This document shows positions 14,565-15,685 of a stretch of DNA of 21,636 bases, piece by piece. The first letter of the stretch is position 1, and the number at the start of each line of letters is the position of its first letter. A model generated the notes under the pieces. The model was not told the origin of the DNA and did not search any database. It saw only the letters and a program-made list of their open reading frames with translations. The position numbers were made by a program, and so were the translations under genes. The stretch comes from a virus. The DNA lies in the IMG/VR virus record IMGVR_UViG_3300031227_000502, positions 1-21,636 of that record. One strand, written 5' to 3'.

Positions 14565-14593
14565 TTGACAGTTTTAACACATTTTGCTATAAT
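14565..14593 (+). promoter_or_regulatory. Consensus sigma-70 promoter for the plus-strand nuclease gene
   Basis: TTGACA (14565-14570), a 17-nt spacer, and TATAAT (14588-14593), all exact consensus, with an extended -10 TG at 14585-14586. Transcription should start near 14600-14603, that is at or within about 3 nt of the ATG at 14603. No SD lies before that ATG, so the message would be leaderless or nearly so. Confidence 0.88.
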
Positions 14594-14602
14594 TCAGATA
14601 CT

Positions 14603-15685
14603 ATGAAATATAAATCAATATGTTTACTTTGTAGAAAAACTTTTTGTCACAATAAATCTAGAAAAAATTCTCCTCATAAATTCTGTTCTCAAGAATGTCA
14701 TCTTGATTATCAAAAGAAAAATGCCTCTTATCATTTTAAAAAGTGTAAAAATTGTGGTAAATCTTTCTTGAATAAAAGAAATCCTAAGTCTATATTTTGC
14801 TCTCCTAAATGTAGAGCTCATTATAACTCAATTAAAAGAACTAAAGAAATAAAACAGTTAGAACCAATTCTGAAGCAATATTATTTTGAGAAAAATCTAT
14901 CTACTCTGAAAATAGCTAGTAAACTCAATGTCACAAAAACTACTATTCTAAAATGGTTCAAAAAATTAGGTATCCAGTCTAAAGAATATTTAGAAAGCAG
15001 ACATTATACTAATTTTAGAATGCCCTCTAAAGAAGTCCTTTATAATCAAACATTGATTCAAGGAAAAACCTATAGTCAACTTGCTAAACTTTACAAGTGT
15101 GACCCTTCAACAATCGGAAATTGGTTGAAGCTATATCAAATTCCTCGACCAAGAAATTATGAAAAACATAAAGGTCTTGATTTCAAAGAACCTACCAAAA
15201 CTCAATTAGAGCATTGGTATATAGAACAACAGTTGAGTACTAGGCAAATAGGGAAACTAATAGACCTATCAGATACGGCAATATCAAAACGATTGAGAAA
15301 ATTTAATATTCCTATCCGCTATTCTGGTTTCAATTTCAAACGATATACGTGTCAAGATGGACATATTGTTAGGTCTGTCTACGAACAAAGAGTAGATGAT
15401 TGGCTTTTTGTTCATAAATTGCTACATCAGTATGAACCTCAATTGCCGTGGAATAATCGTCAAAGAGCTGATTTCAAAGTCAACGGTTACTATATCGAAG
15501 TCTGGGGTATCACTAGCCAACAGTATAAAGAACGGAAATTAGCAAAGAGAAGACAATATAAGAAGTTTAACCTAAAGTTAATTCAAATTTATCCGATTGA
15601 CTTCCAAAGAGGAATTAACCGCAAGTTAAATAAATTATTATCAAAGAACGATAAGCAGAATTATGAGCAATTACTTCTTAAATAA
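14603..15685 (+). CDS. Modular homing-type nuclease: zinc fingers, HTH repeats, PD-(D/E)XK-like domain
   Basis: A 360-aa protein and the only convincing plus-strand gene. Two zinc-binding units sit at C7/C10/C28/C32 and C48/C51/C66/C70. Three helix-turn-helix units follow at about residues 90-125, 140-182 and 195-240 (for example TYSQLAKLYKCDPSTIGNWL). The C-terminal domain (about 250-345) resembles PD-(D/E)XK or Vsr-like nucleases: E261 (SVYEQRVDDWL), D290 (RADFKV) and E299 within IEVWG, then a lysine-rich helix. The usual ExK lysine is replaced by Trp at 301, so the lysine may come from the following helix; this is inference. It is AT-rich compared with its neighbours. It lies between the gp10 and completion genes and overlaps the convergent gp10 3' end by 15 nt. 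Its own promoter is described separately. Confidence 0.85.
   Translation: MKYKSICLLCRKTFCHNKSRKNSPHKFCSQECHLDYQKKNASYHFKKCKNCGKSFLNKRNPKSIFCSPKCRAHYNSIKRTKEIKQLEPILKQYYFEKNLSTLKIASKLNVTKTTILKWFKKLGIQSKEYLESRHYTNFRMPSKEVLYNQTLIQGKTYSQLAKLYKCDPSTIGNWLKLYQIPRPRNYEKHKGLDFKEPTKTQLEHWYIEQQLSTRQIGKLIDLSDTAISKRLRKFNIPIRYSGFNFKRYTCQDGHIVRSVYEQRVDDWLFVHKLLHQYEPQLPWNNRQRADFKVNGYYIEVWGITSQQYKERKLAKRRQYKKFNLKLIQIYPIDFQRGINRKLNKLLSKNDKQNYEQLLLK

Follow-up and report, generated by a model that had tools for sequence, protein, structure and literature searches.

Here we describe a nuclease gene that runs antisense to the neck and tail genes of a phage. The window, by which we mean the whole stretch of viral DNA analysed (21,636 nt), carries this gene on the plus strand between a tail terminator gene and a gene for an HK97-gp10-like, or Neck1, tail completion protein, while every named gene around it lies on the minus strand (Table 1). 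The gene was described as antisense to late genes in the first-pass annotation, a reading of the letters alone, and this description stands. The reading frame contains no in-frame ATG, GTG or TTG upstream of 14603, which is thus its sole possible start. A search for the host of the window phage found none.

Table 1. Features at and around the antisense nuclease gene of the window
Feature	Positions	Strand	Basis
Tail terminator gene; SD (AAGGA) at the insertion edge	14129..14539	-	PF11367 5e-12; PHROG 176
Inserted segment, promoter and nuclease gene, absent from relatives	14540..15679	.	empty sites L017-L019
Sigma70-type promoter, TTGACA-17-TATAAT with TG extended -10	14565..14593	+	sequence
Predicted transcript start, 0-3 nt leader	14600..14603	+	spacing from the -10 box, inferred
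Antisense nuclease gene, 360 aa	14603..15685	+	G+C 0.30 vs 0.41
N-terminal region, repeated Cys pairs, zinc-finger-like	14603..14842	+	sequence; weak PHROG HNH and treble-clef matches
Three helix-turn-helix units	14867..15310	+	Pfam HTH_23 E=3.6e-9, HTH_28, HTH_50; helices in model
C-terminal restriction-endonuclease-like catalytic domain	15335..15637	+	AF2, Foldseek, invariant residues
Tail-to-tail overlap of nuclease stop with gp10 3' end, 15 nt	15671..15685	.	coordinates
HK97-gp10-like / Neck1 tail completion gene	15671..15988	-	PF04883 5.5e-5; PHROG 5 6e-18
gp10 3' stretch diverged from L017	15674..15898	-	identity ~0.65

The promoter upstream of the nuclease gene has a -35 element at 14565-14570 and a -10 element at 14588-14593; no other site in the window matches at 12/12. 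With spacers of 16-18 nt allowed, a Markov model of the window predicts 0.01 such sites per window, and one built on the local AT-rich DNA predicts 5e-5 for the 64 bp preceding the gene. Nine nucleotides separate the end of the -10 from the ATG; a transcript that starts 7-10 nt past the -10 would carry a leader of 0-3 nt. No Shine-Dalgarno (SD) sequence precedes the ATG, and an SD-like motif is present in 21 of the 26 other listed ORFs of the window. With a -10 spaced so that transcription would begin at the initiation codon, and with no SD, the nuclease mRNA of the window is probably leaderless. The exact promoter with its extended -10, noted at first pass, is confirmed here, and the start near an ATG without an SD holds as a prediction. 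The insert is 70% A+T and weaker promoter-like sites occur in the window at about chance level (57 vs 46.3 +/- 6.9 expected), as they would if this were an ordinary insertion in which the perfect promoter had arisen by chance from AT-rich sequence and the gene were silent or read from elsewhere. The rarity of a 12/12 match upstream of the gene and the presence of promoter-like elements before the nuclease in relatives at 65-71% G+C make such an accident very improbable.

Past the end of the nuclease gene, no plus-strand terminator-like site was found between 15685 and 17511, in agreement with the first-pass remark that none was visible; terminator-like sites in the window as a whole are at chance level (12 vs 12.2 expected). 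Around the end of the gene the RNA does not fold with unusual stability (z = 0.71). An Rfam search gave no match, and an intron or riboswitch explanation was dropped on that ground. A group I intron or intein was likewise rejected, as the nuclease gene breaks no reading frame.

Relatives of the flanking genes were recovered by a scan with the terminator protein (L017, 90% identical; L018/L019, 77%; L021/L022, 47-49%), and in all of them gp10 abuts the terminator gene with no nuclease between the two. The window therefore carries an insertion of ~1.13 kb that includes the promoter, and its absence at the corresponding position of the close relatives L017-L019 is as expected of a free-standing homing endonuclease gene. 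The insert has a G+C of 0.30 against 0.41 for the window; it leaves the terminator gene with its SD at the insertion edge, the low-coordinate edge (14540) being uncertain by about 10 nt. Compared with L017, the gp10 gene of the window has an identity of ~0.91 in its first 90 nt and ~0.65 in its last ~225 nt, and the terminator gene just beyond the insertion is again at ~0.92 in its first 90 nt. This divergence on one side of the insertion only is a possible co-conversion footprint, in which either lineage may be the one that changed.

Two further AT-rich homing-type genes, both in sense orientation and with weak or no SD, lie elsewhere in the window (9710-10462, HTH and HNH; 2628-3293, NUMOD3 and HNH), and the window phage seems rich in homing-type elements because of them. 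Separately, the neck module has an unusual site for cargo between head completion and gp10, where the methyltransferase and glycosyltransferase genes differ in number and kind among close relatives (window 16004-17199; L017:460-2688; L020:504-2276).

The nuclease protein combines a DNA-binding array with a catalytic domain. Its helix-turn-helix (HTH) units fall at about residues 89-122, 143-180 and 199-236, within HTH profile matches spanning ~89-240; the N-terminus is of low confidence, and the full-length structure model is unreliable there. The C-terminal domain, modelled with AF2 from four sequences (pLDDT 84, pTM 0.76), has a restriction-endonuclease-like fold in this predicted model. Its best Foldseek match in the PDB is the catalytic domain of I-Bth0305I (3r3p; probability 1.00, E 0.014, TM 0.51/0.59), and the putative endonuclease NGO0050 (3hrl) is also among the PDB matches, which have a probability of 1.00 but E > 0.001. 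In BFVD the top match reached E 8e-6, followed by DUF559, restriction-enzyme and homing-endonuclease proteins. Searches of solved structures by sequence returned HTH regulators only and no solved nuclease. The catalytic domain had no Pfam match to HNH, GIY-YIG or LAGLIDADG, and the C-terminal domain has no match or name in Pfam or NCBIfam.

The family alignments show four invariant residues, E261, D290, E299 and K315, which are the putative catalytic residues as judged from the alignments and the model. Of the EDxHD set, the E and D are present, and the family alignment has no invariant His-Asp after the catalytic D; of the PD-(D/E)XK set, D290 and E299 are invariant, the Lys two positions past E299 is replaced by Trp, and K315 in the next helix may serve as its substitute. 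The predicted fold is shared with I-Bth0305I and the Vsr-like EDxHD enzymes, from which the window nuclease differs in having a D-E...K set in place of the invariant H and D, and a multi-HTH N-terminus. The same C-terminal domain without the HTH array occurs in L014, L015 and L036 and on plasmids H36-H43; the genes for these homologues carry no function name and come from actinobacteria, a Nostoc and a Methylotuvimicrobium, on chromosomes as well as plasmids.

Scans with growing alignments identified nuclease relatives at 15 other loci, or 16 with the window: L003, L004/L005, L012, L031, L033, L034, L038, L039, L042, L043, L044, L045 and L048, the distant L049/L050, and a fragment in L051. Searches of phage records gave no match to the window protein and none to the C-terminal domains at E <= 1; scans at class, phylum, order and family level around a Propionicimonas MAG returned that genome only, plus weak domain-only matches. 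In all 15 related loci the nuclease is antisense to the surrounding genes, and in 12 of the 16, with HMM support, it abuts or overlaps the 3' end of gp10/Neck1 tail to tail. The relation ranges from a 62-nt overlap to a 6-nt gap, with overlaps of 15 nt in the window, 4 in L003, 21 in L004, 20 in L033, 47 in L034, 15 in L038, 44 in L039, 62 in L043, 6 in L044 and 12 in L045, and gaps of 6 nt in L031 and 5 nt in L048 (where the gp10 match is a weak one to PHROG 5). The L051 fragment has the same place, judged by position and not by HMM, and the insertion position is thus fixed across lineages in these 12 loci and one more. Exceptions are L042, where the nuclease adjoins the 3' end of the terminator gene, and L049; the contig of L012 ends at this point. 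In L034 the terminator gene is on the other side of gp10 and the nuclease is still next to gp10, which identifies gp10, and not the terminator gene, as the constant neighbour.

A gp10 motif of the type P-[FYT]-[LMF]-x-P-[AS] was matched in 10 loci; in nine of these, 13-81 nt separate the nuclease stop from the motif DNA, and in L043 the stop falls 11 nt inside it. Across loci, nuclease identity correlates with gp10 identity (Mantel r 0.52, p 0.009), indicating that distribution, orientation and position partly reflect vertical inheritance and that the loci are not independent. From these sequences, the antisense place at the same neck gene in distant phages appears to be a conserved strategy rather than an isolated case. 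Two members depart from the common form. The distant member at L049:3275-4447 has a different N-terminus and runs antisense to an apparent major capsid gene whose 3' end is 3 nt away, so that the family may have acquired another neighbour there. At L051:3902-4303, the catalytic domain alone lies antisense beside a Neck1-like gene and overlaps the start of the tape-measure gene; it is probably a decaying remnant.

Upstream regions could be read at 14 loci, with several start codons picked by homology. In eight, only 6-9 nt separate the end of a -10-like hexamer from the start codon, the leaderless layout: TACAAT-6 in L003, TAGAAT-6 in L004, TATGAT-6 in L012 (GTG start), TAGGAT-7 in L031, TATAAT-7 in L043 (GTG), TAGAAT-7 in L044 (GTG), TTGACT-17-TATATT-7 in L045, and the window as the eighth. 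Among all ATG/GTG codons, only the nuclease start has TANNNT 5-9 nt upstream in L003 (1/776), L031 (1/467) and L012 (1/231), and in L004 it is one of two (2/654). Five other loci have a promoter and a leader (L039, L038, L042, L034 and L033), the promoter being TTGACA-18-TATAAT (12/12) in L039 and TTGACA-17-TACAAT (11/12) in L038. The upstream promoter score is in the top 4% of same-locus windows at 12 of 14 loci (Fisher 3e-14, a value overstated owing to the common ancestry of the loci and the AT-richness of intergenic DNA); the L033 promoter falls outside the 100 nt scored.

Individual upstream regions show further structure. L048, the locus without a clear promoter beside the nuclease start, has at 3600-3680, directly 5' of the ATG, a hairpin, GCCTTCTGTTA...TAACAGAAGGC, then a T run, together resembling an intrinsic terminator or attenuator. 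At L033:1966-2041, the consensus promoter (TGG-TATAAT) is followed by a leader of ~80 nt with a long inverted repeat, CGTAAACCGTG...CACGATTTACG, a possible operator or RNA switch, and then by an SD. In L038 (2520-2560) the SD and ATG (AGGAGGCATGAAACCG) are shifted by one frame relative to the nuclease ORF, suggesting either a frameshift or an error of sequencing at the start.

Based on these observations, we propose, with a probability of roughly 0.72, that the gene belongs to a free-standing homing endonuclease cassette that carries its own housekeeping-type promoter, sits antisense at gp10/Neck1, is expressed leaderless and homes. The first-pass annotation had the nuclease, its promoter, the antisense orientation and the probable leaderless start right; it missed the insertion, the homing-endonuclease type and the conserved position, and the comparative support comes from the 15 related loci, all antisense and nearly all with a promoter-like element. 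The further first-pass suggestions, that the nuclease would be made in any host with a housekeeping sigma factor and from a silent prophage, and that its transcripts would run antisense over gp10, are conjectural. The proposal is limited by the leaderless layout being found in some and not all loci, and by the resemblance of the C-terminal domain to candidate defence proteins.

We infer from sequence a course of events in which the homing endonuclease gene would move as a cassette together with its promoter and settle just beyond the gp10/Neck1 3' end, leaving both neighbours intact. Host RNA polymerase would start at the ATG or <=3 nt before it, the mRNA would be read leaderless, and the nuclease would be expressed ahead of and independently of late transcription. 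In phages without the nuclease gene, the HTH array may bind close to the conserved part of gp10 at its 3' side and the C-terminal domain cut the target there, with repair copying the cassette and flanking gp10 DNA. As late transcripts cross the nuclease gene in antisense, late transcription should dampen its expression, and the nuclease is predicted to be made early or in lysogeny and to be damped late. A domesticated regulator, acting mainly by antisense RNA or transcriptional interference on neck and tail genes with the nuclease secondary, would also account for a strong antisense promoter with no terminator-like site before 17511 and for the tail-to-tail overlap in most loci; we consider it improbable, given that the catalytic residues and HTH array are kept at 30-64% identity across loci and that the gene is absent from close relatives.

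A role in lysogeny has to be weighed as well. In PADLOC the C-terminal domain alone matches the candidate defence proteins PDC-S69 (1e-16 to 3e-19) and PDC-S68, and with a housekeeping-type promoter antisense to late genes, and with L003-L005 contig names in IMG isolate-genome style, this is consistent with a moron, a prophage nuclease that cuts incoming related phages and protects host and prophage, homing being secondary or lost. Such a moron is possible and yet unlikely: the defence match covers the C-terminal part only (PDC-S69 profile positions 179-281 of 289, the remainder of the protein unmatched), a promoter is present and no terminator was found, and a place at one gene's 3' end suits target-linked homing better. 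More tentatively still, these may be homing endonucleases built for lysogeny, in which the prophage nuclease would cut the neck gene of an incoming related phage, a targeted superinfection immunity turned off during lysis. The antisense place and leaderless housekeeping promoter would permit nuclease production while late genes are silent, and late transcription would shut it off during lysis.

The homing cassette that we favour has partial precedents, homing genes being known near structural genes (PMC10448857). Like the seg and mob genes of T4-like phages, the window gene is stand-alone between structural genes, near its putative target and absent from close relatives. T4 free-standing homing endonuclease genes are co-oriented with their neighbours, segD excepted; their specific promoters are middle or late, or there are none, and never early, and antisense promoters have been named as a cost of insertion (PMC2988022). 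The family described here, in contrast, runs antisense, has a housekeeping-type promoter and often lacks a leader. T4 segD resembles the window gene in being antisense and flanked by essential structural genes (23 and 24), but it encodes a GIY-YIG nuclease; no promoter was found for it and its transcript was presumed vanishingly low (PMC2988022). Leaderless initiation has been proposed, with no RBS visible and no mention of a promoter, for the hidden HNH endonuclease of ShiLan in mycobacteriophages (PMC11855218), which is homing-type like the window gene and unlike it has an HNH domain and lies out of frame within a methylase gene. A search of open-licence literature for a promoter-bearing, systematically antisense nuclease family at one neck gene found none.

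The textbook view of phage homing endonucleases comes from T4, where they are co-oriented with their neighbours, silent early and tightly timed. The nuclease family of the window, spread over phages of 40-71% G+C and with a catalytic domain that lacks a Pfam family, reverses this picture: it is always antisense, almost always under its own housekeeping-type promoter, often leaderless, and found at one neck gene. The timing of homing, and the use of such enzymes by prophages against rivals, thereby become directly testable.
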